Part shown: piece after piece, positions 5,249 through 43,220 of the stretch
Numbering within the stretch: position 1 is the first letter of the stretch
How the letters are laid out: the number at the start of each line of letters is the position of its first letter
DNA from: Cinnamomum chago
Taxonomy: Eukaryota; Streptophyta; Magnoliopsida; Laurales; Lauraceae
Assembly: GCA_038049695.1 (NCBI GenBank)
Contig: CP142452.1
Span: forward strand, 37,002,501-37,066,500
DNA length: 64,000 nucleotides
Reading direction: 5' to 3'
Translations under genes and position numbers: made by a program
The notes under the pieces: generated by a model
What the model was told of the DNA's origin: nothing
The model's input: only the letters and a program-made list of their open reading frames with translations
Database searches by the model: none

Positions 5249-5269
5249 GGGAAACACTCCTTGGACGTC

Positions 5270-7492: not shown

Positions 7493-8925
7493 CCCTACCA
7501 AATTACCCAAGGATCCTATCTGGATGATAGGGCTCAACAAAGTCCATGCACTTAATACACCAACAGTAGAAGTTGACCTGATTAAATGGTGAGTGCTGCC
7601 TAACATCGCAATAAGGATCCCATGTGACCTGCAATGACCAAGACAATTATGAGAAATTTTCTTATAAATTAAGAATTTGATGTCAATCAATCCAATAACT
7701 CATTAACAAGCAAGAACCCTTACCTAGTCTGCACCCATGCAATCTAGTTGCTCTCGCAGTGCCTGTAAGAGAGCAGCAGTCTCCCTATGAGGGAGCCATC
7801 GATGAACTCGGGGCAGATTAACGGTATAGTGAATGTTGGGAGTTGGAGCCAAACACTCAAAATGCTCATAAATCCACGCCTCTAGCAGCGTAAGATATCC
7901 GGCAATTTGTTTGACTTCATGATGGGTAGCCAATCCCAATTGTCGATACAAGTAAGCAAGAGCAGCGGCACCCCATGCATATGTACGGACACGCTCCAAG
8001 TCTGTCAAGAGCATCAGATATATAATTGGCACACGTGTGCCACTCTTGTCGGTGAACAATGTGCATCCTAATAAATACAGAAGATATGCTCTCACTGCAC
8101 AATCAATCATGTCCTCTCCATCTTCATCTGATATGTTTGAGAACCTCCCTCTCAGCCACTCTAATCTTACAGATTGGCCCCGAACCTGCTGCAGCTCATC
8201 ATTTGCCTCATTTGGATCAACTCCCAAGTAGTCAACAAGTAGTGAATGCGCATCTTGATATGACAATCTATCATGGTACGCAACAAAACGGGCAGTCACC
8301 GGGATCCCAAGTATGGTGGCAACATCATCTAGACTAATGGACATCTCACCGAACATCATGTGGAAGGTGTTTGTTTCAGGTTGCCACCTTTCCACAAAAC
8401 AAGATACACGGATCTTACTAACAGAGCGATATGATGCTGTAATAAGTGGACTCAAGTTAGATCTAGCTACTAAGTCTCTAAACCTGTCGCTCGTTTAAAT
8501 AACAGTGTGGTATTTTCTGTCCATGGCTCAAACACTTTAGCGCAACCCGTTCTTGTATTAAAAAAATGGTACATTATTGAAGATCTTATAACTAATGCAT
8601 TGATCTTGATATAAAAAGTAAAAAGCAAGAACATACATGTGAATGCCAAATGTATGCAGCTATGTGTGTGTTGAAACTGGGCAACAAAGAATGATCTTCT
8701 GGCCCCGCAGTTATTTCTTGTTCACCGACAGCTTCTTCTTCATCAAGTTGTTCAACAGGGGCTCCTTCTTCGTTGCCCTCTGCAAAATCATATTCCGGTT
8801 CCTTAGTTTCTTCTTCTACCACCTCTTCAATTCTTTGACGACGCCTCCTGTTGGAAGCTGTCGTTCTTACCTTGGAACTGCTTGGCCTATCTATTTTTGA
8901 CGAAACATTGGAAGAAGAGTGTAAA
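6911..8925 (-). pseudogene. Plant mobile domain (PMD) gene, MAIN/MAIL1-like, decayed
   Basis: Exons on the minus strand: about 8925-8637 (acidic/arginine-rich N-terminus ending AAYIWHSH), about 8556-7724 (PMD core: FVERWQPETNTFHMMFGEM, YLLYLLGCTLFTDKSGTRVP, YAWGAAALAYLYRQLG), 7628-7197 and 7117-6911. It is clearly related to the PMD gene at 32558-34878. Lesions: a frameshift near 8475-8500, a TAG as the last codon before the donor at 7724-7726, and a TAA near 7512 where the relative has Gln. The intron that splits the relative after LTLL is absent here. PMD proteins are known from host MAIN/MAIL1 genes (silencing) and from MULE and gypsy elements. Context (33-bp array, no host neighbours) favours a transposon origin. 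Confidence 0.85.
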
Positions 8926-8951: not shown

Positions 8952-9182
8952 TGTTCGACACCGTCTGTTCGAACTTTTCATGGAATGTTCGGGTTTTAAG
9001 TTATGAACATTCATTCAATGTTCGAACATTAAATTTCGAACATTCACAATATGTTCGAAACATCACTTCCGAACATTTAAGATATGTTCGAACTTTAAAA
9101 TCAGAACATTCTACATATGTTCGGAACTTACGATCCGAACATGTTCAATATGTTCGAACTTTCAGTATTGAACATATCGCAT
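8952..9182. repeat. Array of seven 33-bp palindromic repeats (PMD locus 1)
   Basis: Units start at 8952, 8985, 9018, 9051, 9084, 9117 and 9150, exactly 33 bp apart. The consensus half-sites are ATGTTCGAA on the left and GAACAT about 20 bp further on, so each unit is an inverted repeat of about 26 bp plus a spacer of about 7 bp. Units differ mainly in the middle and spacer. Because 33 is a multiple of 3, a plus frame stays open across the array, but it is unlikely to be a gene. The array sits just upstream of the 5' end of the minus-strand PMD gene, the same relative position as array 1 of the MULE at 31736. Confidence 0.95.
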
Positions 9183-10513
9183 GGAAAATAAAAAAAGAAG
9201 TTTGAATGACTCACTACAGTGTGAATACACAGCAAATATGTGATAACATTCAAAACATATGTATCCCTTCTACATATATTCATGCAAAAGAGTGGATACA
9301 AACAACTATTTGCAAAAATATAACAATGAGAATGGTGGTGAGGTCACCCTTGATTTAAATATACCGGTGATATTGCCTTCTTCGTTGAAAATGACCGCAA
9401 CAAATTGATTCAAAGACTGGTTCGGTCCCTTCACTTGCTTAATCGTCAAAATGAATGTGCGACAGATGAATCAAGGGCTGGAAGAGTTACAGGCGTTACG
9501 GGAAGGTGGAGAACGTGTATGAGTAGAGAGAGGAGAGCAAGTCTAAATAGCAGGGGTAGTTAGGGTATGTGGATGGGTGCGGAAAGTAAAACCAATAAAC
9601 ATTCAAATGTTATACATGGGTGTGGAGAGAAATTCGGTGGGAAGAGCAATTTTTGTGGTGCCAATAGAACCCCCCATTGATTAATACTTAATTTGGATAT
9701 TAATTTTAATTTATTATTCAGTTTGTACGGGTTTGAGGCTAGTAAGACTAAAAGAACCATGCTTTAACAAGGTAGGGCTGTTAGACCATAGTCACTGAGT
9801 GATTATGCAATGCTTAAGCATAAGCCATTGACCTGGTCTTACAAAAAATTATACATTCAGCCAATATTTTGGCTATTGAATCCGCATGGCCTTTCGTGAG
9901 AGATTACTCCATGAGGATCCCCGTGCTTTCATCCTGACCATGTAGTTTTGCCCGTCAAATTTGGACCATTGGTAGAAATTTTTGCAACCACCAATCAATT
10001 AACTGCATAGGCATCTGATTGAACTTCATGATACAATTTGAAAGATTTGTACTATTTAAAAAACCTAATGGACAAATATATAGAAACCATCATGCTAAAA
10101 TTACCCAAAAGAATAAGTAAATATATATATATATATATTTACAATTTGTATAAACTAAATAAAATAAAAGGTGTAAATTATTGTTTAAGAACATGAAATT
10201 AAAAAGGCGGAATGGCAGAAGATGCTATCGATGATGTGGGTCTTGATGAATTGGCGATCTCTCTTCGATGATATCGTTCTTATCGACCACGTGGATTTGA
10301 AAGATTCAGCCCATCCATCATCAATCTATATGAGGCCCCTTCCATATGAAAGATGTTCATAATATGTCATCCTACCATAACATTGGACCCACCCATACAC
10401 TTATCTGCAGGAGATGCTATCTACCCACCTGTGACCTGCCCATATCTTTAACTCCGGGCTTGCATAGGCTACTAGACTAGCATACATATCATGAAAAAAG
10501 TTGTTTATAGAGA
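9183..10513. other. Intergenic, nothing recognised
   Basis: No gene or RNA was found. The first part (to about 9660) is probably the outer end of the PMD-bearing element, because GGGTGCGGAAAG and GGGTGTGGAGAGAAATTC near 9570-9650 resemble the MULE end GGGTGCGAATAGAATTTCCC. No matching opposite end or target duplication could be identified. Confidence 0.4.
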
Positions 10514-25997: not shown

Positions 25998-27590
25998 AGA
26001 AAGAAATGAGCATGTGCAAGTCCTTTCTTTTGAGATTGAATGACATACACATAAGTAGCAATTGGTCCAAATATATATATATATATTGAACAAATCATCT
26101 TTTAGGTCTTCCAGTTTTGCTCTAAATACTCGTGCAATCAAATCAGGCCTATTCTGCGATTCTTCAGATGATTCAAGTTCGTTCTTAATTTCAAACCAAG
26201 AAGGATTACATGTCATTGTTAAAAAAATATATCAGGCTTTCCAAAACATTCAACCAATGCCATTGCATCTATATAACGTCACCTCATATCTCTTGGACCA
26301 TGTATAAATGATGCTGGTAAGATAATTCTATTTCTAACTTTGGAGCCATGAGTTTCTTCAACTGTAATACTATCAACAAGCCCCTGATATAAATCATCAC
26401 GTATTTCATCTTGTCGATAATGAAGGTAGTCCAACCGAGAGCTCTCTAGCTTGATGTACATGTCAACAACATATTGTTGTAACAAATGACCTGAGTGTAG
26501 CAGTAGTGAAGGACAATTTCCCGTATTTGCAATTTGTAGCAACAATACTCGCAACAAGACACATCCTTTCTCTTGTTAACTTTCCTCTGGTTCACCGGAA
26601 AACATTAAAAACTTTATTATAATATGTTCAATATTAGCAGTATAATTTAAATAAGTAATGTATCATCAGTACCTTGCCTTTCTTTTTGAAGGAGATCTTC
26701 TGGTGATGATATTTGGGAAGGATTAAGAGATGTTTGTCCTTGACAATAAGCTCTCGAAATTGTTTTAGTTAATCTCTGTAATCCCTTATGCCATCCAGTA
26801 TCACCATATTGAAATCATAATGGATATTGCAATGGATCATAACATCTAAAATAATATTGCACTCTGTGATTATGGCCCGAATGACTATGGATAATTATAT
26901 CGCGTTCACCATGCATGCCAGAGTCATTATTCTCTATCCATATTGCTGCTACTTGTGATTTTGACGGAGTATTATACACTCTTTGGTTTAACCCGACATC
27001 GCACTTGATTACAATGTGGAGGCTTTCCAAAGTAGGTACATGCCGAAGGCTCTGGAAAAATGAGCAGTATGGATTAATTGATAAGATATTGAGCAACTTT
27101 CGAATGATGCTTGGATTAATTTTTGATGATGCCTGTATGCGGTTCTCCAGTTCATGTTCCGTGTTATAAAAATAGAGTTGCAAGAAAGAAGGATGTCCAT
27201 TTGTGGGTACCAAGTCATTGATATAGTGGTATACCTGACCTTGTACCTTGAATGTATATATACATTCTTGTCTTCTGCAATGATCTCTATCATATTTGAC
27301 ACCAACCGCAGTAAATGCAAGAGTGTTATTATATGTACGAACATATTTTTTAAATTCCAAAGCATCACTTGAGTTTGATTTAAATAGCGAATGGAGTTCT
27401 TCGGGGGAATGATTTGAAACTTGTGATATTTGACTGGAGGAGCAGCAGAAGCCTACAGGTTCACAATGAAGTCTCTTTGCATTTCAATATTCACATGGTG
27501 AAGAAGATGGTAAAATGGATGGTTCTTGAGATATATTTTAAAGAACTTCATCTATGCATGTGGAGCTAGAAGGGATTTCATCTATAATAA
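25998..27590 (-). pseudogene. Helitron Rep (HUH) domain, copy 1
   Basis: Minus strand: AKRLHCEPVGFCCSSSQ near 27470, EFKKYVRTYNNTLAFTAVGV, YTFKVQGQVYHYINDLVP, VGLNQRVYNTPSKSQVAAIW, SGHNHRVQYYFRCYDPLQYP, a TGA stop at about 26818, an intron near 26590-26690, then DYLHYRQDEIRDDLYQGLV, MTCNPSWFEIKNELE and DLIARVFRAKLEDLKDDLF. This is the Helitron-like N domain of plant Rep-Hel transposases. A TA-microsatellite expansion (about 26068-26085) interrupts the frame; beyond it lies YVYVIQSQKKGLAHAHFF with the HUH metal-binding pair HAH at 26006-26014. The domain breaks off at about 25998 before the catalytic tyrosines. The stop, TA insertion and truncation make it inactive. Confidence 0.9.
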
Positions 27591-28950
27591 ATATAAAAGC
27601 AAGAAAGAAGTATAGTTTAGTTACTTTGAAGATTTTTTTTTAAAAAAAAGAGAAAATTAGATAATTATATATGCGCCTGAACTTTGGTACTTATTCGAAG
27701 AGAAAATGAAGTATATATAATGTTTTATTACCTCTAAGAGCTTCATTTTATTTTTTATATTTTTATGAAGTAGAGTGACGATGCGCTTTTGATGTTGATC
27801 ATATTAAAACAATTTTAAAAAAAACTTACCATATGCCCGTACTTTAAGTGTTAAGTGATTACAGGTTGTAATTCTTACCAACTTCATAAGTGCTGAAGTA
27901 CTCAATTTGTTGTTTTCCTTCTGCTTGATGTTGTTGATGAAAGATAGTCAACTTGATTCACTAGTATAGAGAAAATCAAAGAATTGTTAGTCAATGATAA
28001 GAGTTTCAATAATTGATGCATAACTTTAGGAAAAGAATAAAATATATTTTTTATTTTGTTTATTACTATACCTGGTTTAGAAATAGAGTTTCCTTGATGA
28101 AGACAATTGTGAATCACGTGCAATTCTTAATTTTTTTTTCTTTTGTATGCTTCTCTCCTTTTTTCTGTAGTTCTGCCTTGTCATCGCTAAAATTTTTATA
28201 ATAGTTTTTTAAATATTCTCTTCTATCTCTCTTTTGGCCCATATTTTACATTTGAAGGAAAAAGGGGGGAAAATCTATAATGACGAAATTGTGCAGTTTT
28301 ACATTTTCTAACAAGGTGTAGACTGTAAGAGTCTGGATCTAGTAGGAATTGCAAGCGCATCTACAACTGCTAATGATATATTAGGTTTAGAATTTCCACT
28401 ATACAGCACAAGAGATTTGGAAAAAAAAAGAAAAAACAAACGGGTAGGAAGCATTGGAGAACTCTTGTCAGCTCTCGAAATCTCGACAATTGGATAGATT
28501 GAAGCATTTGAGATTTCTATCACAGCAAATGAAATTTGAGAATCAGCATGACAATGAATATTGGCAATTTCTCACATTTTGATTGAGGAATGCAAAATGA
28601 GATCGTGGAATCTCTTGCAAAGGAGATTGCATCCGGACTACAGTATGTTCAGGCATCCATGCCAGAAAGAACAAAGAAAAGAAGTTGGCAAGATGAACAT
28701 TCAAAACATCTCTACAACATATTTTAACATAAATACTTATATGTGAAGTCATACAAACATACTTATAAATTCATAGATTCCAATGAATGGCCAACAGAGC
28801 TTCATCTTTATTAGTAACTTGCTGGGCTGGAATCTCTAGCATCCATGTGTTTTAATTTGAATGTGGGAAAAAATTTGAACAAAAGTATTGGTGCATATTG
28901 ATCAGATTTTGTTGAACCGACGTCCTGAGATGTTTCTTAAGCCATTTAGC
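27591..28950. repeat. Helitron 5' leader and segment Y, copy 1
   Basis: Repeated at 43221-43797 plus 48826-49633. The first part is the AT-rich 5' region of Rep. The second part (from about 28150) has on the plus strand near 28337-28425 a coding-like stretch starting LDLVGIASASTTANDILGLE that I do not recognise, followed by sequence with stops. It ends where the PPR fragment begins. No RNA gene or complete ORF is supported. Confidence 0.6.
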
Positions 28951-29218: not shown

Positions 29219-29613
29219 TATTGAATTATTCTTGACCTTGACATGGTCAGTGACTGTGCATTAAGGTATTTCCTTGTATAGAGTCCTCCGTTGTATCAAT
29301 CACCACAATCATGGGATTGCCCACTGTGTCAATCACTACAATCATGGGATTGCCCACTGTAACTTTTCTATTTTTACTCATTGTATCTTTATTTATAGCG
29401 ACACATCAATGAAAGAAAGTCAAGTCATTGTCATATTTCATTCTTAATATGGCATCAGATTAAGCTCGGGTTTCTCTTCCTGTTTTCAAATCTTTTTTGT
29501 CCACCTTTTTTTTATCTCTGTAAAAAAAAAAAAAAGGCTTCTACAGCTTCTACAGATTCCTCCATTTCTGATTCATCATCATCCCCATTTTTTCTCCATC
29601 CTTCTGATAGCCA

Positions 29614-31735
29614 TGGACATATCTTAGTCTCCCCACCTCTCATAGGTGACAACTATGCCACTTGGTTTCGTGCCATGCGAATGACTCTCATGGCTAAACA
29701 CAAGTATGGCTTTTTTGATGGCACTCTTCCAAAACCTCAACTCACTGATCCAAAATTTTCACTGTGGGAACGTTGTAACCAAATGGTCTACTCATGGCTT
29801 CTCAACTCTATCCACATGGACATTGCCAATAGTGTCATGTATGTTGGTTCTACTCAAGAAGTACGGACTTATCTTCGTGATTGATTTTCTCAGAAAAATG
29901 CTTCGAGGATTTATCAAATCACTCACACCATCGCCACTCCCCAACAAGATTCTTCTTCCGTGGCTGTTTATTTTACCAAACTCAAGGCTTTTTGGGATGA
30001 ACTTTCATCCTACACTTTTGTCCCACCTTGCGCCTGTGGATCTTCAAAAGCTTTATCTGCACTTCACCACCAAGAGATGGTTATGCAGTTTTTGATGGTT
30101 TGCATGAATCTTATGCTTCCATTAGAAGTCAAATACTTCTAATGGACCCTCTCCCATCTGTTAACAGGGCCTATGCCCTTCTACTTTAAGAAGAAAGGCA
30201 ACGTAAGTTGCATGCTTTTCCTTTTAATAATAATGTTACTGCTCTTCTTGCATGTACTCCATTTCAAGGTTGTCGTTCCACTTCGGATTCTCGCGGCAGA
30301 TCACGTTCAAAACTGAAGTGTGATCATTGTGGCAAAGACAACCATACCATTGATCGATGCTACCGGCTTCATGGCTTCCCACCAAAGAACAAACAATCTC
30401 GTGTAGTGGCTGCCAACGTACAACAGTCTCCTATTGTTGCTCCTCCTTCCGTGGAGTCATCTGATGTTACATCATCTTCTGCCATTATTTCTCCAACCCC
30501 ACCTCTTTCCCAAGAGCAATACCAACATCTCTTGAATTTACTCACAGCAGGTGCTACCTCTTCTATGGCCAGTCTAGCAAGTAACATTGCATGTTTTTCA
30601 GTTTCTCTACACCTATTTGGGTCATTGATACAGGTGCAACTCATCATATGGCCTGTAGCAAAACTTTTTTTTCTTCCATATGTAAGCCCACTTCTTTGCA
30701 ACCTGTTATGTTGCCCAATGGAAATAGCATTTCTATTTCTCATATTGGTTCTGTTATTTTATCTGACAATATGCACTTAGACCATGTTCTTTATGTTCCT
30801 GATTTTAAACATAACCTCTTATCTGTTAGTCAATTTACTAGATCTCTTCATTGCTCAGTCACATTCTACCCTGATTTCTGCATCTTTCAGGACCAATCAA
30901 CGAGGAAGATGATTGGATTGGGTAGACAGCGCGGCGGACTTTATTTTTTGGAAGGACCATCAGCCAACTTTGTTTATTCTCCCCCCACTACTTCATTTGA
31001 TACATGGCATTGGCGGTTTGGACATCCTTCCCTCTCGCGTTTGCAATTACTGTCAAAGTCTTTTCCCTTTATTTTTGCTATGAATAAATGTATTTGCAAG
31101 ATCTGTCCCTTAGCAAAACAAACTCGTTTACCTTTTCCAAATAGCACTATTTCTTCTACTTGCATTTTTAATTTAATCCATTGTGACATGGGGTGCTTAT
31201 CAAACTACCTCTCTTTGTGGTGCTCGTTGTTTTCTCAAACTAGTTGATGATTACTCACGATGCACTTGGGTGTTTTTGATGCTATGGCTCAAAATCAAAT
31301 CATTGTCAAATTCAAAACATCAGAACTGACAATGGTGCAGAATTTTATTCCATTGATATGCAAAATTTCTTTAGATACAATGGCATAATTCACCAACATA
31401 GTTGCATCTCTACCCCTCAACAAAATGGTGTGGTTGAACGCAAGCACCGACTTCTTCTTGAAGTTGCTCATGCTTTGCGTTTTCAAGCTCACCTTCCATT
31501 ACTATTTTGGGGTGATTGTGTTCTCACTGCTACCTACTTAGTTAATAAACTCCCAACCCCACTCTTGTCTGGGAAGAGTCCTTGTGAGGTTTTATTTAAT
31601 TCTCCACCTACTTACAAACATTTGCGCGTATTTGGTTGCCTATGTTATGCCCATAATCCTCACATAAGTCATAAATTTGATAAACGGGCTCGTCCTGGCA
31701 TCTTTATTGGATATCCATTTGCACAAAAAGGTTAT
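29614..31735 (+). pseudogene. Copia gag, protease and integrase, interrupted
   Basis: Gag begins with PPLIGDNYATWFRAMRMTLM at about 29630 and ends in a CCHC knuckle CDHCGKDNHTIDRC near 30325. Protease has an intact WVIDTGATHHM near 30615. Integrase shows WHWRFGHPSLSRL, the HHCC finger, a catalytic Asp in LIHCDMGCL, the second in RTDNGAEF and the Glu in NGVVERKHR, then LPLLFWGDCVLTATYLVNKL. Frames change near 29880, 30600 and in 31190-31330, where sequence between the first two catalytic residues looks partly lost. The reading ends at GIFIGYPFAQKGY, where the MULE inserted at 31736; the coding sequence resumes at 38711. Confidence 0.9.
31727..31735. other. Left 9-bp target duplication of the MULE
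   Basis: AAAGGTTAT, identical to 38711-38719. A 9-bp duplication is the Mutator superfamily hallmark. Confidence 0.97.
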
Positions 31736-31757
31736 GAGAAATTTTATATGCACCCAC

Positions 31758-32246
31758 CTATTCTCCTGAATACACCCACTTGCTAACCTCACCACACCCA
31801 TTCTAATTTTGGCTTGATTTTGCTAAGCTCACCCACCATAATCACCAAACTGCCCATCCAAGCTCACCATTCGTTCAATTTCCTGAACACATTCCCTCGT
31901 TGAGATTTTTCAAATTTCTGGCCATTTTGGAATCGTCGTCCTTCTCCACTTCAGAGCTCTCACACCCTCGTGGACAGTTGGTGAGCTGCGCTCCTTCTTC
32001 TTCGTCTTCTTCATCAGGGACACTCAAACAGGTGAGAGCCCTTCTTCTTCTTCTTCTTCTTCTTCTTCTTCTTCTTCTTCTTCATAGGTTTATCATTTTC
32101 ACAAATTTGTTTAGGTTGTAATTTCTGCATTAGAGAGTATAGTTGTGAGACCTTTGCAACAAATAGGGAAGTCCGTAATGAAAACATGAATAGTTTCGAA
32201 CTCCAATGTTTTCCATTTTTGAAAACATGAATAGTTGTTCGCGATC
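31758..32246 (+). promoter_or_regulatory. MULE left end: probable promoter and 5' leader of the PMD gene
   Basis: Noncoding sequence with a CT-rich leader, including a (CTT)n tract at about 32042-32084. It lies between the TIR and array 1. No TATA box stands out. Lysine- and leucine-rich frames here are products of the microsatellite. Confidence 0.5.
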
Positions 32247-32510
32247 TGCTCGGCAGTCCAGAGACGTGCAGGGATTTGCTGCACGGCAAGTGTAAACCGT
32301 GCAGAATATATATGCACGGCCTATATAAGCCGTGCACATATAATTTGCACGGCATGTAATGGCCGACCAAATATAGTTTGCACGGTTTCATATTACCGTG
32401 CAAACAGAGGTTGCAAGGTTACATTGAGCTGTGCAAACAGGACTTGCACGATTCCATTTCGCCGTGCAGAATAATGTTGCACTGTCTATTTAAACCGAGC
32501 AGTACAAAAA
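32247..32510. repeat. 33-bp palindromic array 1 (8 units), PMD 5' leader
   Basis: Units start at 32247, 32280, 32313, 32346, 32379, 32412, 32445 and 32478, each exactly 33 bp. The consensus is TGCACGG, 10 variable bases, CCGTGCA, then a 9-bp AT-rich spacer. Several units keep compensating half-sites, others have one degraded half. It lies 48 bp before the PMD start codon. The plus frame open through it is an effect of the 33-bp period. Confidence 0.96.
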
Positions 32511-32557
32511 AATATGATATCCTCTTATTGGTTTTCATTTTTAACAGATTGGAAGAA

Positions 32558-34878
32558 ATGCCGAGAAGACCAGCTTGCCGTATTGGTGCCAGCTCACATA
32601 TGACAGGGGGACGGGCCAGTTCTTCTAGCGAGCCATCGAGAGTTCGGACGAAGATCGGTGTCTCAAGATCGTGTTACCAAGGTGTGCATGCGAGTTCTTC
32701 GACCGCCGGCCGTCAACCGCCAACGACGTCTGAACGAAGACGAAAACTACAACAGGATCCACTCCCGGAGCAGGTTGAGGAGCATGTTGACAGTTCTTCA
32801 GAGGATGATTCCTCAGAGGAGGAGGCACAGCCGTCCAGTCCCCGTGCATCGGCACCAGGAGAAGAGCATGGTGACAGTTCTTCAGAGGATGATTCCTCTG
32901 AGGAGGAGGCACAACCGTCCAGTCTCCCTGCAGCGGCACCAGGGGAGGATGATTCCCATTTCGAGGAGGGACAGCCATCCAGTCCTCCTACTGCGGCGGC
33001 AAGGGAGGATCCTATCCTCGGCGGTCCGGCCGACCTATCTGTCCTTATGAGTTTTAGGACACACGTAGCCTTGTCCATATGGGACGGGGAGGTACAATTG
33101 CCTTTTTTAATGTTTTAATTAATCGTTTTTCAAGTAAGATGTGTTGAAGTCTATAATAACAGATATTAATGAAGATTTATACTTGTAATGTGCAGGAACG
33201 TGAGTCACTCAAATGTATTAATCATTGGCGAGGGCTGAAGGATTGGTACATACCTTTGCCCGGGGATGGGGTCGATATCCATGTTCCTCGGTTTCATGCT
33301 ATTATAGAAGAGTCTGGATTGGCAGATTTGAAGCGTTTTTGTTACCGATATATCTCCAGCCCTCTGGTATCCAACTTTGTAGAGAGGTGGCAGCCCGAGA
33401 CAAATACCTTCCACATGTCATTTGGTGAGATGATGATCACCTTAGATGATGTGGGTACTCTCCTCGGCATCCTAGTAATGGGACTGCTTGTCCACGCATC
33501 GACCAGTATGGGATTTACTGATCAAGTAGATTTACTTGAGCGTGGACTGGGCGTGGATAGGGCATCTGCGTCAGCTGAGTTGAGAGTAGCGCGTGGTGGG
33601 GTAGTGAGGATGGCCTGGATCAAACGGGTGTGCGGCGAGGTGAGTCCTGCGTCGTCTGTTGAGCAGGTAGAGTGTGCAGCTAGAGGCTATCTTTTGTATT
33701 TGTTAGGCTGCACACTCTTCGCCGATAAGTCAGCCACTCGAGTCCCCATTGCCTACCTACATTTACTGATGGACTTTCCACGGGTCCGTCGTTATGCATG
33801 GGGGGCTGCCGCACTTGCATATCTTTATCGCCAATTGGGCACCGCCGCGAGGGCAGACGTGCGACAGATTGCTAGATATCTGACACTGCTCACGGTAATA
33901 CATATACATATACATGTTCCATCGTAATTGATCATTTAAATTGTATAATTAATAATTCGTATCTTTTGCAGTCTTGGGTGTACGAGCACTTCCCATTTAC
34001 CTGTCCTCCTGCGCAGTGGGGATATATCGCTAGTATGCCTCAAGCGAGCCGCTGGAATGCTGGACAGGATTCTGGGATTGCGAGGGAGAACATAAAACTG
34101 TTGCGTGAGAGGCTGGATGACCTACATCCGAGTGAGGTGAGCACCCATATGGGGTCCTTGGTATCTATTTTACTTTTTTTCAATGGACAAGTTTTTATTA
34201 TAATAATGAGTTCTTTCATTTACTTGCCACAGGTCCAGTGGGATCCGTATACTGGTGTCAGGGCTCATCATCCATTCCATCAGATATCTTTCTTCTGTGG
34301 TTGCTTGAGAGCGCTAGATGTCATTGAACCCTACCATCCACATAGGGTTCTCCGACAGTTTGGATATGTACAGACCATCCCACCCGCACCGCTCGCCCCC
34401 ATTCGTGCGTCTCGGGGATCTACTGCTGGACAATACAGGGTCTCTTACAGATTTCTAGACCAGTACTGGGTTACTTGGGAGGATCATGTATTGTCCTTAG
34501 CGCACCGCGGCCATCGAGCGCAACATGCATGGGAGTGCTCACCCGACTACCTCGAGTGGTTTTTTAGGATTTCACACCCTCTAGTACAGAACCCCGAACG
34601 TCATTCCCACTATCACCCTAATGAGGGTATAGCTGGCCCGACTCCAAGAGTGGTGAGTGTTTGTACTTTATCGAAACATTATGCATCCATTTGTTATACT
34701 TATCTTAGGTATTGACACAGTTAATTGTTTCTTATAAATCACTCGGGCGAGGGACCATCTCCGCGCTACGATTGCACGAACGGAACAGCCTGCATATTTC
34801 TATTACCGGGCACTCCAAACCACCCTCGAGATCCTGGAGGGCTTGCCGGTGACGTACCGACGACGTACAGATCCATGA
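32558..34878 (+). CDS. Plant mobile domain (PMD) protein carried by the MULE
   Basis: Exons 32558-33091, 33196-33894, 33972-34136, 34233-34652 and 34709-34878, all with GT-AG introns. The start MPRRPACRIG was chosen because upstream in-frame codons lie in the 33-bp array. Exon 1 encodes a Ser/Glu/Asp-rich low-complexity region with two repeats of SSSEDDSSEEEAQPSS, ending at LMSFRTHVALSIWDGE. Exons 2-4 form the PMD: FVERWQPETNTFHMSFGEMM, YLLYLLGCTLFADKSATRVP, YAWGAAALAYLYRQLG, VQWDPYTGVRAHHPF, FFCGCLRALDVIEPYHPHRV, APIRASRGSTAGQYRVSYRF. Exons 1-4 are open; exon 5 needs one frame change near 34740 to reach RARDHLRATIARTEQPAYFY and its stop. The PMD is related to MAIN/MAIL1 silencing factors and occurs in MULE and gypsy elements. 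Its role in the element is unknown; nuclear localisation is inferred. Confidence 0.88.
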
Positions 34879-35149
34879 TGGCATGAGGGTTTTTCTTTTG
34901 TCTTATTCTTTTGTTAAGTCTGTATGGATGGGAAATTAAAGCATACACTTTAGAGGATGTATGGATGGGTTTATCCATTTTTACGATGTAAGGAATTTTT
35001 TGGATATGTATGGATGGATCACCTGATTTTTGGATGTATCCATTTTTTTAATGGATGTTTTGAGGATACAGTTTTTTATGTTTGAACTTGTATGTTTTAT
35101 ATGGATATGTATGTTATGTGTTTCTGTCCGAATAATTGGTAAAATACAC
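34879..35149. other. Intergenic between PMD 3' end and array 2
   Basis: AT-rich 3' flank with repeated ATGGATGG/GGATGTATGG motifs. No gene is present. It probably holds the PMD 3' UTR and polyadenylation signals. Confidence 0.5.
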
Positions 35150-35315
35150 TGCACGGCCACCATGTTCCGAGCAAATAGCTGTGTGCACGGCACTTTATTA
35201 ATGTGCAAATAGTTTATGCACGGCAACTTTCTGCCGTGCATTATCCATTTGCACGGAACATATTTGCCGTGCAGAACACATTTGCCCAGCCATGTTTAAT
35301 CGAGCAGTTGTTAAT
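35150..35315. repeat. 33-bp palindromic array 2 (5 units), between the two MULE genes
   Basis: Units start at 35150, 35184, 35217, 35250 and 35283 (the first is 34 bp, the others 33). They have the same TGCACGG / CCGTGCA half-sites as array 1, with more decay in the first and last units. It lies in the short space between the convergent PMD and transposase-OTU genes. Confidence 0.95.
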
Positions 35316-35451
35316 GAAGTAATACCTTCTTTGGAATATTATTAATGAATTAATACACAACATAAACACATAAAGACCTCATCGAATTCATTGGCCATCC
35401 AATACAAAATAGGTAATATGTTTGTTTACATCAAATTGAGAGTACACATAA

Positions 35452-38342
35452 TCAATCACTGTCAAGATTGACCGACTCCTGCGTCGCGACACTGTTTCCA
35501 ATCAATTCTCTGAATTGCTCGATGCTCTTTGCATATGGGAGCTGCCATCTGTTTGCTTCAGGATGGTGGTGTCTATGCCAATTTGTAGCGATGGGAGGCA
35601 TGGGTGATTCGGGTTTCATGAAGACCTGAACAAAATGGTTTCCATTGACGAAACCAACCGCGAGCACTTTGTGAGAACTTGATGGAATCGGGGATGATCT
35701 CAAAGGCAGGAAAGTAAGGCACTGCTGCAGTGAAAGAAGGACCAATACAACGTTATAATATGAAGATATTAAGTGACCTATGTCCGGCATTGTCATCCAT
35801 CGATCAAATGAAGGATTGCTTTCAAAGTAACACAATGCATAATACAGCTCCACAACCCTGTCCTCTCCTCCATAGACCAGTGCATAATAATTTTGATACC
35901 TCTGCAATTCATTGCTCAAATCCATTCTAACTTGCATCCATTTATCCTCGCCCAGGCCTAGGAGACCAGCTATCGCTCTGAATCCACAATTACCATCAGC
36001 TGCAACATCCTTAATAGTGTGGATATAGGGGCCCAAAGACTAAGGAAGCAAATGCAGAAACGTACATGACCGAGTGCGACGGACAGTCATTTTCTCCTTA
36101 TTCTTCGTTGCAACTGTATTGCTTAATCTAGCTGGAACGCTATCTTTTATCGACAGTGCGTATTCAAAATTAGATGATTCCCGACGCGTAGATCTATCCA
36201 ACTTCTTTCTTTTCGATGATGATCGATCGCGGGTATTCAATTTTACGTCTGGTTCGATAAGAGAAGTAGATGAAGGACAACCGAGTTCTCTAAGTTTTCT
36301 TAAAATTTGTATTTTACCCTTCTGATCACTACTTTGAAATCTCTTAGTGATCAACTCGAACTCTGAAGTTGTGGTCAACTCAAGGGCTTCGTTCACCATA
36401 GTGGCTTCTAAATTGAGCTTCCGCCAATAGTGGTGGACACTACTCAGTGGTATATGAGAACCTTCTCTTATGTACTCGGCAATTTCATGTGCACATGGCA
36501 AACCATGAGTCCGTCGGATTATGCACCCACTGATGTAGAATCTGGACCAATATCACTAGCCCTTAACGACTCATTTAACACTATATCCAAAGCATTCCTT
36601 GATAGAAATCCTCTCAATTCACGAAACAGTGCCGGTTTGAACTTATGTTGCACGGTGTTCAAACTCTTTTCAAAAGAAGCCTTTATTTCTGTAAAAAGCA
36701 ACTCTAGCAAGGCATGTATAACCTGCCAGGACGAATCAAAGCTACAGCTTGATGTGCCTAGGTGTCTCTTTAATTTTGCATGTGCACTCTCAGCTCTGTT
36801 AGTAGTGACGTTCCCAAAGTGCATATGCCGATCCGTCCATGCAGCCACAAATTGCTCCTTATGCTTATTCAACCATGAGGTCTTCACATAATCAACAGCA
36901 TGTGGATACCCACAGTAATTCCGTTCCAAAGCACTTAGCATTTGCATGTAGTCGCTTTCAGTTGGAGAGACTACCAACGTGTTCCAACAAGAGATAAATG
37001 CAACCCATCTGTCGTTGGTCTCAAAACACTTCTTACAATTTGCCAAGATGTTCCTAGAAATATGCCACCTGCATAATAAGTTTGTTGCATTCGGAAAAAT
37101 AACATTTATTGCATTCATCAGCGCTAACTCTTTGTCTGTGACAATCACACGGGTCGTGATGCATCCATCCATTAATTCCTTAAGCCTCTCCAAAGCCCAT
37201 CTATAATTGGCCCCCCTCTCTGATTTAAGGTACACAAAAGCAACAGAGAACGTCAATTGAGTAGATGTGACACCAACAATCTCAAGCAAGGGAAGTCGAT
37301 ATCTATTAGTCTTGTATGTGGAATCCATTATCAAAACTTCTGGAAATGCACGTAATAACTGAATAGATGATGGATGTGCCGAGAATAGGTTCATGATAAC
37401 ATCTGTAGCATCGTTGCTAGTGTGATACTCAATGTAGTTGTTCTCTTCCAAATGCCTCATGAGTTGCTGTATTTGTGATCGACCGGCCATCTCTGTCACC
37501 TTAAACTTCTGGCGAGCATTGTAGATACTCTTAATTGTAGTGGTGTTGTGCACATCCCTTTCCTGCAATGTTCAAAGGATGTTCCTCGGTTTCACCAAAC
37601 TCTTAGACATATCAATCAAAACGTTGATTTCTTCCACAGAAAGCCTCCCAACAAACCAGTACCCCTCTAGATGCTGTGCGTTTGGATGATTGTGCACCCC
37701 ACAAACCACTGTTAACATCCAATCGTCGTCAGTTGCCAACTTTCGACCCTTCAAAGCAAAAGGGCAACTACACTTCTTCGTTCCCGTTGCCTTGTTAGGA
37801 TTTCTCTTCTCGAATACCTTCGATGGACTCCTATAACTACCACTTCTCTCACAAGAAAAAATGATTCTCGGCTTCCTTCCATCTCCACCAGCATCCCAAG
37901 TCTTGATTACAATTACCAAGCCATGTTTCTTTCCAACATCCCTTGTCCATTGGATTAGGCCCTCTCGACTTCTGAATATCATGTTAGTGGTGAAGACATT
38001 TGTAAAATCCAAAAGGCACTCACTGGCACCGGTTGATTCAACCTCCTGCAAATATATCACAAATTTTTAGATTAGCACTGTACACTCATTTATTAATTTT
38101 GCACGGTTTATATAGGCGGTGCAAAATTATTCTGCACGGTTTATATAGGCGGTGCAAAATTATATTGCACGGTATATATAGGCCGTGCAGAATAATTTTG
38201 CACGGTATATATAGGCCGTGCAATATAATTTTGCATGTCTTATAGAATGCCGTACAGGACGTGAGAAAACAAAAAAAAAACGAACGAAATGAAGTCAAAA
38301 TGTATATACCTCATTTTCGTAGATCGTCAACTGCTTGTCCAT
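35452..38342 (-). pseudogene. MULE transposase with FAR1-like, SWIM and OTU protease domains
   Basis: Exon 1 (38342-38310) encodes MDKQLTIYENE; intron 1 holds array 3; exon 2 runs from 38045 to a stop at 35452. Domains in order: a FAR1/WRKY-GCM1-like DNA-binding region (RSREGLIQWTRDVGK, then KCSCPFALKG and VVCGVHNHP); the MULE DDE core with Asp in EVLIMDSTYKTNRY, Asp in VIVTDKELALMNA, LCRWHISRN, and Glu in TTNRAESAHAKLK; a SWIM finger (CIIRRTHGLPCAHEIAEY); then an OTU cysteine protease with the Cys box DVAADGNCGFRAIAGLLG and His in NGNHFVQVF. Lesions: TGA at 37572-37574, a frameshift at about 36517 destroying the first SWIM cysteines, and TAG at 36040-36042 just before OTU. The flanking frames are otherwise continuous, so the parent gene was probably a single fusion of roughly 850-870 residues. 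OTU enzymes remove ubiquitin; why a transposon carries one is unknown. Confidence 0.92.
38100..38264. repeat. 33-bp palindromic array 3 (5 units), in transposase intron 1
   Basis: Units start at 38100, 38133, 38166, 38199 and 38232, each 33 bp. The first four are nearly identical: TGCACGG, TTTATATAGG or TATATATAGG, then [C/G]GGTGCA or CCGTGCA. The first two share one base change in the right half-site. This is the most homogeneous of the three arrays, so it probably expanded most recently. It lies between the GT donor at 38309 and the CAG acceptor at 38046-38048. Confidence 0.96.
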
Positions 38343-38688
38343 ATTGCAAATGCCTACTTTAAATACACAATGTGGTGTAGGGATAATTGTACTTCCAAGT
38401 TCGTTCAATAAATGGAGGAGACTTGATGATATATTAAAAAGAGTTAGAAGAAATGATGATGAAGGAGATGAAAATCAATGAGGAAGAAGGAGTGCAGAGG
38501 TGCAGTGAGAAGGGAATGGATAAAGGGATAGGAGGAGGAGAAGAAGAAGAAGAGACTGGAGACCCACTGCTGCTGGTGAACCAAAGGAGGAAGACGGATG
38601 TTGATGGTAAGGGAAATTTTGTCCTTTCACCCGAGGGCATTTTAGTAATTAAAAAATATTTAAGTTGTGGGTGTATTCATCACTTCCA
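38343..38688 (-). promoter_or_regulatory. MULE right end: probable promoter/5' leader of the transposase gene
   Basis: Noncoding on the minus strand, CT-rich near 38450-38560 like the leader at the other end. Plus-strand frames here are glutamate-rich shadows. It borders the right TIR (38689-38710). Confidence 0.5.
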
Positions 38689-38710
38689 GTGGGTGCGAAT
38701 AGAATTTCCC

Positions 38711-40653
38711 AAAGGTTATCAAATTTATGACCTCGAGACTAAGTCTACCTCTATCAGTCGTGATGTCATATTTCACGAGAATGTTTTTCTTATAGAGAAA
38801 TCAAAACTAACCATTTTGACAACTCGCCTGTCCTACCCATTCCCTCTCATGACATTGATGATGGTCCCACTACACCTCTTCATCCGACCAATGATTGTTC
38901 TCCTCCAACCCATTCATCCCCACCACTTTCTAATAGAATTTCCACATCTGATCAACCCCTGTCCTCACCACCTCCTTCACATTCAGATCCAGTCCCTATT
39001 CCACATCGTTCTACCCGTATTTCTAAAACCCATCATTCTTAAAAGACTACCATTGCTCCACCACCATCGCTTCTATTGCTCCATCTTCCTCAAAGAAAGG
39101 TATTGCACACCCTTTGTCTAGTTATTTGGATTATAATAATTTGTCACCCAAATATCTTGCTTTTCTTGTTGGTATCAGTTCTCATACAACGCCGACATCC
39201 TTTTCCACTGCCGTGAAGATACTTGAATGGAGAGATGCAATGGCTACTGAAATACGTGCACTAGAAGCCAACAGAACATGGGTTGTCACTCCTTTACCAC
39301 CTGACAAAAAACCCATAGGATGCAAATGGGTTTACAAGATCAAACATCGACCCGATGGTTCTATAGAATGATATAAAGCACGTCTTGTTGCCAAATGATA
39401 TACACAAACTGAAGGCCTGGATTATCATGGGACATTTGCCCCTGTGGCAAAGCTAGTGACTCTGCGTTGCCTTCGTGCCATTGCTTCCATCCAAAAATGG
39501 TCCATACATCAACTTGATGATAACAATGCATTTCTCCATGGTGATTTAGAGGAGAAGGTTTACACGAAGATCCCACCTGATTTTTTCAAGCAAAGGGGCA
39601 ATTATGTTTGTCGGCTTCATAAGTTGATTTATGGCTTAAAATAGGCTTCAGGAAATTAGTTTTTCAAGCTATCATTAACTCTTATTGCTACTAGTTTTGT
39701 GCAATCTAAGGCTGATTATTCTCTTTTTAGCAAAATTTCTGGTCACCTGTGTGCACACATGCTAGTTTATGTAGACGATATTATAATTACAGGTAATGAC
39801 TCAATAGCAATTTCTCACTTGAAAAGTTTCTACATACAAGATTTCTATAAAGAAATTGGGCCAACTCAAGTATTTTCTTGGCATAGAAGTTGCTCGTTCT
39901 TCAAAGGGAGTTTTTTTATGCCAACGAAAATACACTTTAGAGCTTTTACAAGATGCTAGCCTATTGGGTGCACGACCTGCAGATTTTCCAATGGAGCAAC
40001 ATTTAAAGTTGACCTCCACTGATGGTGACCCTCTACCAGATGCTTCATCTTATAGACGACTGGTTGGTCAACTTATCTACTTAACAATGACTCGTCCTGA
40101 CATAACATATAGTGTCCACATTTTAAGCCAGTTCATGCAACATCCTCTTCAACCTCATCTTGATGCTGCTCATCGGTTACTTCGCTATCTCAAAAGCACT
40201 CTCGGCCAAGGCATTTTACTCTCCTCTTCCAGTCCACTCCAATTATCTGGATATTATGACTCTGATTGGGCCAGTTGTCCAATGACTCGCAGATCTACCA
40301 TTGGCTACTGGACTTTTTTAGGCACCAGTCCTGTCTCATAGAAGGCAAAAAAGCAACCTACAGTTCCCCGTTCTTCTACCTAGGCTAAATATTGTGCAAT
40401 GGCTCTTCTCACTTGTGAGATTACTTGGTTAAAATATCTTTTATACGATCTTGGAATTTCTCATGACCAGCCCATTACACTATTTTGTAACAACAAGGCA
40501 GCCCTGCACATTGCTGCTAATCCTGTTTTTCATGACCAGACTAAATATATTGAATTAGATTGTCATCTAGTTCGAGAAAAGATACAATCTGGGCTTATAC
40601 AGACTGCTCATCTTCACACTTCTAAACAGCCTGCGGATCTCTTCACTAAATAA
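38711..40653 (+). pseudogene. Copia reverse transcriptase and RNase H, interrupted upstream
   Basis: Resumes with KGYQIYDLETKSTSIS after the MULE. RT: EWRDAMATEIRALEANRTWV, GCKWVYKIKHRPDGSIE, then a stop; FAPVAKLVTLRCLRAIAS, AFLHGDLEEKVYTKIPPDFF and the catalytic MLVYVDDIIITGND (intact YVDD). The connection region LKYFLGIEVARSSKG and RNase H (SGYYDSDWASCPMTRRSTIG, LFCNNKAALHIAANPVFHD) follow. Stops or shifts occur near 39369, 39396, 39642, 39850, 40339 and 40381. This is replication machinery of the copia element, now dead. Confidence 0.92.
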
Positions 40654-40964
40654 AGCATTGGGTCGTGATCGTATTCGACTATTAATTGACAAGTTGGGCA
40701 TGCAAAATATTCATGCTCCAACTTGAGGGGGCGTATTGAATTATTCTTGACCTTCACATTGTCAATGACCGTGCATTAAAGTATTTCCTTGTATAGAATC
40801 CTCCATTGTATCAATCACCACAATCATGGGAATGCCCACGGTGTTAATCACTACAATAATGGGATTGCCCACTGTAACTTTTCTAATTTCACTCCTTGTA
40901 TATTTATTTATAGCGATAGATTAATGAAAGAAAGTTAAGTCACTGTCATATTTCATTCTTAACA

Positions 40965-41150
40965 AACTCTAATTAAAGTAATATAATCCGGTTGTAGTTT
41001 AGTTTTATTCATTTCATCAAACATCCTCAGCGCTTCTTTACTCTGCCCATGAGCAACAAACCCATTGATCAAAGTTGTCCACGTCAACACATTTCTCTCA
41101 GGCATTGCGTCGAACACCCTCATAGCACCCTCAAAGCTAGAATTTCAGCA
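40965..41150 (-). pseudogene. PPR gene fragment, copy 2 (upstream half)
   Basis: Continuation of 28951-29213 after the copia element. It follows the 3' LTR at AACTC, then TAATTAAAG, and encodes FDAMPERNVLTWTTLINGFV-type PPR helices on the minus strand. Confidence 0.83.
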
Positions 41151-41632
41151 TACAGTTGGGGTACGGTGTTAAAAAAAAAAAAAACCACAGCGATCTCATT
41201 TACATACAAGGCTATGCTAATCCAACAATGGAAACGGAACTAATACACTACAGATTCCATCATAGAGTACAAAAATTAGAAAGCAAAGATGGAAGCACTT
41301 GCATGACAGAGAATCCACCATAGCAAACAACACCAAAAGGGGAAAAAAACAACAATATTTAGAGAGGATTTTGACCTGCAAGAGTCGAAATCCAGACAAA
41401 ACAAAACATCCTCTTGGTCACCAAAAGCTCGTTTTTGAACGTGAGGAGAAGAAGAGACAACTCCTGTTTCCTTTACCAGCTAAACAGTGCCACAGGAGCT
41501 GTAATGTCATCTTGCATCTTATTGGGCCCCATCACAAAGGTGGGTGCAATGAAACAAGCATGTCAAGTTACTCTCTTTTACATAAGGATAAGGAAGAAGA
41601 GAAGAAGATATAAGGAAATAAGGATAAGAAGA
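41151..41632. repeat. Segment X, copy 2
   Basis: Same segment as 25576-25997 and 49926-50440. Includes AAGCTCGTTTTTGAACGTGA, which copy 1 lacks, and ends at the same GA-rich junction with Helitron Rep. Confidence 0.75.
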
Positions 41633-43220
41633 AAGAAATGGGCATTTGCAAGTCTTCTCTTTTGAAATTCAATGACATACACATAAGCAGCAATTGGTCC
41701 AAATATATATATATATATGTTTTTTGAACAAATCATCTTTTAGCTCTTCCAGTTTTGCTCTAAATACTCGTGCGATCAAATCAGGCATATTCTGCGCTTC
41801 TTCAGATGATTAAGTTTGTTTTTAATTTCAAACCAAGAAGGATTACATGTCATTGTTAAAAATATATTAGGCTTTCTAAAACGTTCAACCAATGCCATTG
41901 CATCTATATAACGTCGCCTCATATCTCTTGGACCACCTATAAATGATGCTGGTAAGACAGTTCTATGTCTAACTTTGGAACCATGAGTTTCTCCAACTAT
42001 AATACTACCAACAAGCCCCTGATATAGATCAGCTCGTATTTCATCTTGTCGATAACGAAGGTAGTCCAACAACATATTGCTGTAGCTTGATACAGAGAGC
42101 TCTCTAGCTTGATGTACATGTCCACAACATATTGCTGTAACAAACGACCGGAGTGCAGTAGTAATGAAGGACAATTTTCCCGTATTTGCAATTTGTAGCA
42201 ACAATACTCGCGACAAGACACATCCTTTCTCTTGTTAACTTTCCTTTGGTTCACCGGAAAACATTAAAAAAATTTATTATAATATGTTCAATATCAGCAG
42301 TATAATTTAAATAAGTAATGTATCATCAGTACCTTGCCTTTCTTTTTGAAGGAGATCTTCTGGTGATGATATTTGGGAAGGATTAGGAGATGTTTGTCCT
42401 TGACGCTTTCGAAATTATTTTGGTTAATCTCTGTATTCCTTTATGCCATCCAGTATCACCATATAGAAATAATAATGGATATTGCAATGGATCATTACAT
42501 CCAAAATAATATTGCACTCAGTGACTATGGCCCGAATGACTATGGACATTTATATCGCGTTCACCATGCGTGCTAGAGTCATAATTCTCTATCCATATTG
42601 CTGCTACTTGTGATTCTGACGGAGTATTTATACACTCTTTGGTTTAACCCGACATCGCACTTGATTACAATGTGAAGGCTTTCCAAAGTAGGTACATGTT
42701 GAAGGCTCCGGAAAAATGAGCAGTATGGATTAACTGATAAGATATTGAGCATCTTTTGAATGATGAATGGATTAATTTTTGATGATATCTGTATGCGGTT
42801 CTCTAGTTCATGTTCCGTATCATAAAAATAGAGTTACAAGCAAGAAGGACGTCCATATGTGGGTACCAAGTCATTGATATAGTGGTATACCTGACCTTGT
42901 ACCTTAAATGTATATATTACTTTTTGTCTTCTGCAAAGAACTCTATCATATTTGACACCAAACGATGTAAATGCAAGAGTGTTATTATATGTATGAACAT
43001 ATTTTCTAAATTCTAAAGCATCTCTTGAGTTTGACTTAAATAGTGAATGGAGTTCTTCGGGGGCATGATTTGAAACCAGTGATATTTGACTAAAGGAGCA
43101 GCAGAAGCCTACAGGTTCACAATAAAGTCTCTTTGCATTGCAATATTCACTTGTTGAAGAAGATGGTAAAATAGATGGTTCTTGAGATATATTTTGAAGA
43201 ACTTCATCGGTACATGTGGA
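41633..43220 (-). pseudogene. Helitron Rep (HUH) domain, copy 2
   Basis: Collinear with copy 1 at 25998-27590. It reads RRRYIDAMALVERFRKPNIF, MTCNPSWFEIKNKL and YVYVIEFQKRRLANAHFF. The first metal-binding His of the HUH pair is Asn here (41638-41646), and the TA expansion at about 41704-41718 again disturbs the frame. Unlike copy 1 it keeps YPLLFLYGD where copy 1 has a stop, but it has a short duplication near 42070-42140 and several frame losses at 42630-43020. Inactive. Confidence 0.88.

Follow-up and report, generated by a model that had tools for sequence, protein, structure and literature searches.

Inverted half-site arrays in MULEs with a plant mobile domain gene: a proposed VANC-like anti-silencing system

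Introduction

The 64-kb stretch of DNA analysed here (the window) holds a MULE, E1, with three arrays of one palindromic repeat, and the question raised by this locus is which protein reads these arrays and with what effect. Plant CACTA or hAT transposons carry subterminal arrays of repeated short sites inside both ends, whereas E1 has a third array in mid-element, a strict period and inverted half-sites. A second point of comparison is Arabidopsis VANDAL21 with its protein VANC21 (Hosaka 2017, PMC5735166; Sasaki 2023, PMC10398659), which in the available parts of these papers shares with E1 a non-transposase protein encoded by the transposon. MULEs with a PMD gene, like E1, appear in the accessible text on MAIN/MAIL1 (Ikeda 2017, PMC5418596), although there the PMD is fused with the transposase, while in E1 it is a separate convergent gene. 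In the portions available of that paper and of a 2021 review (PMC8616336), transposon PMDs have already been suggested to serve anti-silencing, and the review describes PMD as a domain of unknown function; those portions make no mention of target arrays, motif classes or a VANC-fold link.

Results

E1 combines TIRs and a 9-bp TSD with a transposase carrying the PF10551 domain, as expected of a MULE (Table 1). Exact 9-bp TSDs also flank two other loci (L018 and L020), and in five E1-type copies they are exact in L006 and L012, imperfect in L005 and L011, and not visible in L013. From its translation, read by eye, we take the host sequence around E1 to be a copia-like polyprotein. The spliced E1 PMD protein matches PF10536 (Pfam, E 4e-63), which makes E1 a PMD-encoding MULE. 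The host is close to Cinnamomum (best protein match 82%). The N-terminal region encoded by exon 1 is acidic and contains tandem repeats that stay in frame (32780-33010, period 84 and 60). Family dN/dS at exon 2 is 0.38, and PMD is under purifying selection; such selection fits either sign of action, anti-silencing or repression. Two labels from the original prediction fared less well. The transposase had been called FAR1-like, and its N-terminal part falls below the Pfam cut-off for FAR1 (22.7 of 28.1 bits) but above that for AFT (28 of 21.6). The OTU label has no Pfam support, with no match at E <= 10 for that ORF, in which we presume a GNC-type motif, spotted by eye.

Table 1. Positions of E1, E2 and their parts within the window
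Feature	Position	Strand	Remarks
Further E2 PMD pieces	7242-7631 and 6599-6886		
E2 PMD ORF	7724..8455	-	PF10536 E 9.2e-49
E2 array, 7 units	8952..9174	.	Half-site TGTTCG[A/G]; leader side of E2 PMD gene
E2 terminal sequence GGGG-TTCTATTGGCACC	9655..9677	-	Like E1 TIR
Left 9-bp TSD AAAGGTTAT	31727..31735	.	Right copy 38711-38719
MULE E1, 6,975 bp	31736..38710	.	TIRs 31736-31756 (+), 38690-38710 (-)
Leader array, 8 units	32247..32510	.	TGCACGG-N10-CCGTGCA, period 33; between left TIR and PMD start codon
PMD gene coding exon 1	32558..33091	+	Splice sites inferred from GT/AG
PMD gene exon 2	33196..33894	+	Plant mobile domain core
PMD gene exon 3	33972..34136	+	
PMD gene exon 4	34233..34652	+	3' extent of gene provisional
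Middle array, 5 units	35150..35315	.	Gap between convergent PMD and transposase genes
C-terminal ORF	35452..36036	-	Labelled OTU in the original prediction
Transposase core	36519..37568	-	MULE domain PF10551 E 9.4e-25
Transposase N-terminal DNA-binding part (predicted)	37572..38060	-	AFT E 2.8e-6, FAR1 E 1.6e-4
Transposase-intron array, 4 good units and 1 out of register	38100..38264	.	446-610 bp from right end
Transposase short first coding exon, 11 residues	38310..38342	-	Followed by array-holding intron; splicing predicted

A pattern search allowing up to two mismatches returned 16 matches in the window, all 16 inside the three E1 arrays (shuffled sequence: mean 0.04, maximum 1), confirming that a 33-bp palindromic repeat forms three arrays in a single MULE. 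The predicted 8, 5 and 5 units hold for their starts, which follow 32247 + 33n in the leader, 35150, 35184, 35217, 35250 and 35283 in the middle (one 34-bp step) and 38100 + 33n in the intron, but in the fifth intron unit (38232) the arms are shifted one base from the register. As had been claimed, the half-sites are better kept than the rest of the unit, with a mean information over the 18 E1 units of 1.65 bits in the left arm and 1.33 in the right against 0.50 in the centre and 0.44 in the spacer. When the window was scanned for lattices without a motif prior (7-bp arms, gap 10, period 33, 4 units, maximum 56), the E1 arrays scored 54, 54 and 50, and the only other outlier was a fourth array at 9019 (51/56), absent from the original list of three; the next best score in the 64 kb was 41.

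As to which E1 protein would read the arrays, PMD or the FAR1-like transposase, PMD is favoured by predicted structure and by the motif classes described below. Models of PMD predict the fold seen in DNA-bound VANC21, where the modelled proteins are Cinnamomum and Euphorbia relatives rather than the E1 protein itself and are partly dependent, most sequences in their alignments being common. Sequence identity between VANC21 and PMD is 8-10% despite this common predicted fold, and the likeness emerges from fold comparison and not from sequence profiles: PMD profiles matched no solved structure at E <= 1, and another search returned 14 unrelated matches at E <= 10. DUF1985 was not matched by the E1 PMD protein at E <= 0.01, and weak matches (E <= 1) occurred in 15 of 30 homologues (best 4.8e-4). 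In the manner of VANC-type systems, tandem arrays of the candidate target motif lie in the non-coding parts of the same element and differ between families. Given the likeness between PMD and the VANC fold, an anti-silencing protein probably uses the arrays as its landing strips, and by this analogy we favour, with moderate confidence, a VANC-like sequence-specific anti-silencing system in which the PMD protein reads the arrays. A common fold is not proof of common function, and we infer both the identity of the binder and the outcome, anti-silencing as opposed to repression or help in transposition. That PMD binds the arrays and represses, as autoregulation or copy control in the way of host MAIN/MAIL1, we consider unlikely. 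The arrays do lie near both gene starts, and host PMD proteins have a silencing role (in the available text of PMC5418596), but VANC21, the only clear solved relative of the fold, leads to loss of silent marks (as far as the accessible part of PMC5735166 describes), and the middle array, between gene ends, is unexpected for promoter autorepression.

The fourth array belongs to a second element, E2, and repeats the E1 geometry (7+10+7, spacer 9, period 33) with a different half-site. The E2 PMD ORF has a weak DUF1985 match (E 0.0059, 17.0 bits of 35.1 needed). Only one end of E2 is readable, and neither its other end nor an E2 transposase was found. This element bears on whether the arrays are accessory sites for the FAR1-like transposase that aid end synapsis, like subterminal repeats elsewhere. 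Two of the E1 arrays are near-symmetrically subterminal (512-775 and 446-610 bp from the left and right ends), the transposase N-terminus has its AFT/FAR1-type DNA-binding match, and small non-autonomous copies retain sites between their TIRs. On the other hand, the third array sits in the exact middle of E1 (0.50), and the VANC fold is predicted for PMD, the only protein modelled. The E2 end, the one that could be read in an element for which no transposase was found, resembles the E1 TIR while the array motif differs, and therefore end and array recognition appear uncoupled. We judge this use of the arrays by the transposase to be rather improbable.

Motif class follows PMD clade, TGCACGG in one and TGTTCGG in the other, an agreement that comes from two clades of related copies and amounts to about one evolutionary contrast rather than 14 independent ones. 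A strict rule of one motif per family was rejected, since PMD fragments at L015, L019 and L021 that are 58-63% identical to E1 exon 2 carry TGCACGG. Against the favoured reading, members of a PMD subfamily at 72-80% carried neither motif exactly (0/4 on C1), for which a third motif or decay could each account. Inverted sites that are short, strongly conserved and close to both promoters would also suit a host transcription factor that reads the units as enhancers of both transposon genes, with the role of PMD lying elsewhere. This has little probability in our view, because within one genome the half-site varies between two families in step with the PMD clade while the 33-bp lattice is unchanged.

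Across the source genome, the motif TGCACGG-N10-CCGTGCA has 637 exact places against 1 for a reversed control. We examined 18 regions on C1, which cover the 50 exact places listed there, and 17 of these contain E1-type MULE coding sequence or a good TIR, so that the arrays are, as predicted, a property of these MULEs; the remaining region (L016) shows just a single TIR-like end, mismatched at 3-4 positions. Two non-autonomous elements (425 and 911 bp) retain the motif. Retention in close copies was likewise as expected, with the leader array in 37/38, the middle array in 38/38 and the intron array in all 8 loci that reach that part. Between exact half-sites the gaps stay at 10 and 9 bp, and the close copies hold 1.41/1.25 bits in the arms versus 0.42/0.41 in centre and spacer. 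None of the three outcomes named beforehand as contrary (arrays mostly outside such elements, copies without arrays, no excess in the half-sites) was seen in the material examined. The scope of a single MULE was too narrow: the system switches motifs and has more than two thousand exact places genome-wide.

Indels are clearly depleted in the leader array (4.0 versus 24.7 per kb) and weakly so in the middle array against one flank (5.6 versus 8.6), the other flank giving 2.2 (9 copies) and no depletion, in a comparison whose unit detection favours 32-34 bp steps; we rejected this mixed result as general proof of a spacing constraint. Among 10 close copies, divergence is 0.060 in arms, 0.113 in centres, 0.111 in spacers and 0.063 in non-coding flanks. 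That the arms do not lie below the flanks here counts against the favoured reading and, together with the insertions and deletions of whole 33-bp units that the leader array shows at 3.8 per kb, would fit passive minisatellites born of slippage, a reading that we rejected as highly improbable since slippage homogenises whole units and here only the arms are alike, since the geometry persists under the different motif of E2, and since L014, L015, L019 and L021 share the TGCACGG arms and spacing while their blastn matches to E1 of >150 bp all fall in gene bodies and never touch the leader, the intergenic part or the arrays. RNA hairpins acting in splicing or as a small-RNA source or decoys, for which a unit could fold into a stem of 7 bp closing a 10-nt loop and transcription would cover the arrays in leader and intron, are equally hard to credit and were rejected, as double complementary arm changes number 9 versus 13.4 expected and it is the letters, not the pairing, that are kept, with no RNA-type covariation.

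Discussion

We propose that the MULE E1 and its relatives bring along both a sequence-specific DNA-binding protein, PMD, and the sites that this protein targets. Each array would be a regular lattice of inverted half-sites, bound by the element's PMD as dimers or higher assemblies, so that PMD may mark all three non-coding parts, both gene leaders and the middle. Bound PMD would counteract host silencing, as VANC proteins do for Arabidopsis VANDAL elements. PMD clades would read different half-sites (TGCACGG, TGTTCGG) on one 33-bp ruler, and therefore the copies opened by a family would be its own, while non-autonomous derivatives with sites could be opened in trans.

The parallel with VANDAL21 extends, in the available text of PMC5735166, to tandem motif arrays that differ by family and sit in introns and non-coding upstream sequence, as in E1 and E2, and to variable parts of VANC21 with peptide tandem repeats, comparable to the acidic repeat region of the E1 PMD. 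The two systems also differ: the E1 protein is a PF10536 PMD below the DUF1985 cut-off, and VANC21 sites are described there as 9-bp words in one orientation, whereas E1 sites come as inverted pairs whose lattice is fixed at 33 bp, a difference that counts against the proposal. VANDAL21 resides in Arabidopsis, and the PMD-MULEs reside in a distant host close to Cinnamomum. The host DOWN motif CATGCAGTTT, as given in the accessible part of PMC9899485, has only TGCA in common with the half-site. We found no literature on a PMD-VANC structural link or on such arrays in a collection with few subscription journals.

We give about even chances to a broader reading in which PMD proteins, including host MAIN/MAIL1, and VANC form one superfamily of sequence-specific DNA-binding proteins, and in which PMD-MULEs carry matched pairs of reader and site whose half-sites have switched between PMD clades (TGCACGG, TGTTCGG, perhaps others) on an inverted lattice that stays fixed at 33 bp. 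This reading raises the question of direct DNA binding by host MAIN/MAIL1, which is open in the literature as represented in the available text of PMC9899485. The present analysis assigns PMD the predicted fold of an anti-silencing protein bound to DNA, along with candidate DNA targets whose code can be read. Because one genome offers two motif classes, each with its PMD clade, specificity can be tested directly. If the anti-silencing proposal is true, sequence-specific anti-silencing reaches a second protein family and a plant lineage distant from the Arabidopsis VANDALs. If the superfamily reading holds, a single arms race would set host PMD silencing proteins against selfish anti-silencing ones.

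The E1 arrays are lattices of alternating half-sites

E1, a PMD-carrying MULE of 6,975 bp, ends in the TIRs GAGAAATTTTATATGCACCCA and GGGAAATTCTATTCGCACCCA and is bounded by a perfect 9-bp target duplication, AAAGGTTAT. It carries a plus-strand PMD gene, with four coding exons placed by GT/AG and the gene end left unassigned, and a convergent minus-strand MULE transposase with AFT/FAR1-type and MULE domains, whose reading contains one stop and a frame change in this copy. The closest protein match was from Cinnamomum micranthum (82%). By eye, we take the insertion host to be a copia-like element with stops; its split by E1 would give the insertion a relative age. Near-duplicate stretches, whose translations look Helitron-like by eye, flank this host, one on each side, and further along lies a tandem repeat with no relation to the 33-bp arrays.

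Three TGCACGG-N10-CCGTGCA arrays were located where the original prediction had placed them. Measured within E1, the first lies 512-775 bp from the left end, the second precisely at the midpoint (0.50) and the third 446-610 bp from the right end. All 16 inverted-pair matches with ≤2 mismatches in the 64 kb fell inside these arrays, compared to a mean of 0.04 in shuffled sequence. The predicted unit counts of 8, 5 and 5 held for the first two arrays, while the third proved to have four good units and one out of register. CpG observed/expected was 1.03, 0.95 and 1.65 in the arrays versus 0.74 across E1.

Table. Coordinates of features in the window and on genome contig C1
Feature	Position	Description
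E1	31736-38710	PMD-MULE
Leader array of E1	starts 32247 + 33n	8 units
PMD repeat region of E1	32780-33010	in-frame tandem repeats, 84 + 60 bp
Middle array of E1	starts 35150 to 35283	5 units, one 34-bp step
Transposase-intron array of E1	from 38100	4 good units + 1 out-of-register unit
E2	6599-9677	decayed PMD-MULE
PMD ORF of E2	7724-8455	PF10536, E 9.2e-49
E2 periodicity	8955-9187	33 bp
Presumed copia-like element	29220-31726 + 38720-41000	with stops, split by E1
Presumed Helitron-like stretches	25400-28000 and 40950-42500	near-duplicates
Tandem repeat	46960-47091	21/43 bp
TGTTCG clusters	C1:350791, 353854, 356228; C1:11575662, 11578047, 11581096	
72-80% PMD subfamily	C1:23329526, 25566743, 26784349, 27025699	neither exact motif on leader side

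As predicted, the half-sites, or arms, are better kept than the rest of the unit, with 1.65 and 1.33 bits per position versus 0.50 in centres and 0.44 in spacers of E1 units. Copies of the E1 family held 489 units (206 distinct), and the distinct ones gave 1.41 and 1.25 bits in arms, 0.42 in centres and 0.41 in spacers. Unit-to-unit steps were exactly 33 bp in 390/406 cases; since the detector behind this count favours 32-34 bp, we also counted exact half-sites without a spacing rule in the window and 46 loci. Same-orientation pairs (up to 120 bp) lay 33, 66 or 99 bp apart in 243 of 270 cases, inward-facing gaps were 10 or 43 in 278 of 300, and outward-facing gaps were 9 or 42 in 134 of 142. 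These spacings demonstrate that the array is a lattice with one half-site per 16-17 bp in alternating orientation, forming dyads within and between units. Arm changes included 9 double complementary changes versus 13.4 expected, so compensation is absent; this disfavours RNA pairing of the arms and speaks for DNA recognition.

Arrays are retained in E1-family copies and related MULEs

Among the best 150 of 2,711 genomic candidates scored against E1 PMD exon 2, the top 75 were 89-100% identical and the other 75 were 59-92%. Our E1-family set comprised 38 loci (E1, which is also L023; L005-L013; and L024-L052 minus L035, which repeats L008). The arrays are kept in these copies: the leader array in 37/38 (missing in L052), the middle array in 38/38 and the intron array in 8/8 loci reaching it; L009 stops short of its position and L010 is rearranged there. 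PMD exon 2 bears the signature of purifying selection (dN/dS 0.38 over 698 pairs), with an in-frame stop in 5/38 copies and gaps or unaligned ends in 4/38. Between ten close copies, arm divergence (0.060) was lower than that of centres (0.113) and spacers (0.111) but close to that of non-coding flanks (0.063). In the leader array, non-whole-unit indels were rarer (4.0 per kb) than in the flank (24.7 per kb), and whole units were gained or lost at 3.8 per kb. In the middle array non-whole-unit indels, at 5.6 per kb, were only slightly rarer than upstream (8.6) and commoner than downstream (2.2; nine copies). Neither the flank divergence nor these indel rates strengthen the case for constraint.

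Across the 1.06-Gb source genome (14 contigs), the exact TGCACGG motif occurs at 637 places, and the same pattern backwards at one. For the first 50 of the 637, which lie on C1 and reach 51.5 Mb, we fetched 18 regions that cover them all. Nine held E1-type copies, five (L014, L015, L019, L021, L022) held diverged PMD, transposase or C-terminal matches, and four had a TIR-like end with no protein match, good in L017, L018 and L020 and with 3-4 mismatches in L016. By these coding matches or ends, 17 of the 18 belong to such MULEs and the remaining one is probably a member too. Two complete non-autonomous elements retain the motif, L018 (425 bp, TSD TTTACTTGA) and L020 (911 bp, TSD TTCTTGTTT); L016 and L017 each have a single recognised end. 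A 4-unit lattice scan found no full array in these four, their units being few or irregular. L021 contains, at 835-1559 and 4471-5370, two PMD-type arrays with a TIR-like end after each; the two ends are 3.8 kb apart, the second array has 12-13 units, and the whole is perhaps a tandem or nested pair.

Array motif and PMD protein change together

Scanning all 64 kb by lag (periods 20-59) revealed a fourth 33-bp periodicity, missed by the original prediction, and a motif-free lattice scan ranked 9019 third (51 of 56, consensus TGTTCGA). This array sits beside a second PMD gene, on its leader side, near a terminal sequence resembling the E1 TIR, and belongs to E2, whose units share the 7+10+7+9 plan of E1 with a different half-site, TGTTCG. 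Within the window, one E2 terminal sequence was recognised and no second end was found, nor was a transposase, as tblastn with E1 transposase pieces matched E1 alone. Genome-wide, TGTTCG-N12-CGAACA-N9-T matched 1,422 forward places vs 11 reversed controls, and 1,430 vs 13 on the other strand; among the matches listed, 33-bp steps were frequent, and some stretches held successive clusters spaced 2.4-3.1 kb apart, as in E1.

We scored the best 150 of 2,806 candidates for the E2 PMD and compared motif with protein on C1 up to 30.46 Mb, the reach of both motif lists, among the best 150 PMD matches listed for each of E1 and E2. E1-type PMDs (91-94%) had TGCACGG units 730-900 bp upstream in 6/6 cases and TGTTCG in 0/6, while E2-type PMDs (73-91% to E2) had TGTTCG units 459-698 bp upstream in 8/8 and TGCACGG in 0/8. 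TGCACGG also accompanies one relative of E1 at 59%, and 4/4 PMDs 72-80% identical to E1 had neither exact motif on the leader side, which may reflect a third half-site or decay. The TGCACGG-class PMDs of E1, L015, L019 and L021 form one clade (support 98/96) that also holds two Cinnamomum proteins with no motif class attached. The E2 PMD falls outside, with Papaver and Acorus PMDs joining the E1 side first, although support at this fork is lower (81/71). TGCACGG is kept while PMD identity drops to 58-63%, and the E2 clade motif differs; blastn matches >150 bp between E1 and L014, L015, L019 and L021 are confined to gene bodies. Array motif and PMD protein thus change together, although, since copies within a clade are related, the agreement is near one contrast rather than independent cases.

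A candidate anti-silencing system akin to VANC21

Ikeda 2017 speculates that MULE-captured PMDs serve anti-silencing (PMC5418596), and a 2021 review suggests something similar for transposon PMDs (PMC8616336); our literature searches listed no paper on target arrays, on motif classes or on a structural connection between PMD and VANC. The PMD proteins of E1 and E2 fall short of the Pfam cut-off for DUF1985, the domain criterion of VANC-type systems, and both binding and demethylation are putative here; we therefore regard the PMD system as akin to these systems and do not count it as a member. DUF7745 also matched 6/30 aligned PMD proteins (best E 3.8e-6), suggesting that PMD, DUF1985 and DUF7745 may be related.

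VANC21, the anti-silencing protein of Arabidopsis VANDAL21, is described as binding a 9-bp word, repeated in single orientation in non-coding parts of the element, and as causing hypomethylation, intergenic parts included; the words lie in introns and upstream regions, and these regions vary as tandem repeats (PMC5735166). The E1/E2 sites are similarly placed, at both gene leaders and mid-element, their words are clade-specific, and the E1 leader array varies by whole units. The tandem repeats in the E1 PMD gene encode an acidic Ser/Glu/Asp-rich N-terminal region, resembling variable regions with repeats that have been described in VANC proteins. Anatomy, conservation and motif classes are observed here, and the PMD fold is modelled. 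On the reading we favour, the PMD protein would bind the lattice of its own family and keep the element open; binding, its specificity and the sign of the effect we infer.
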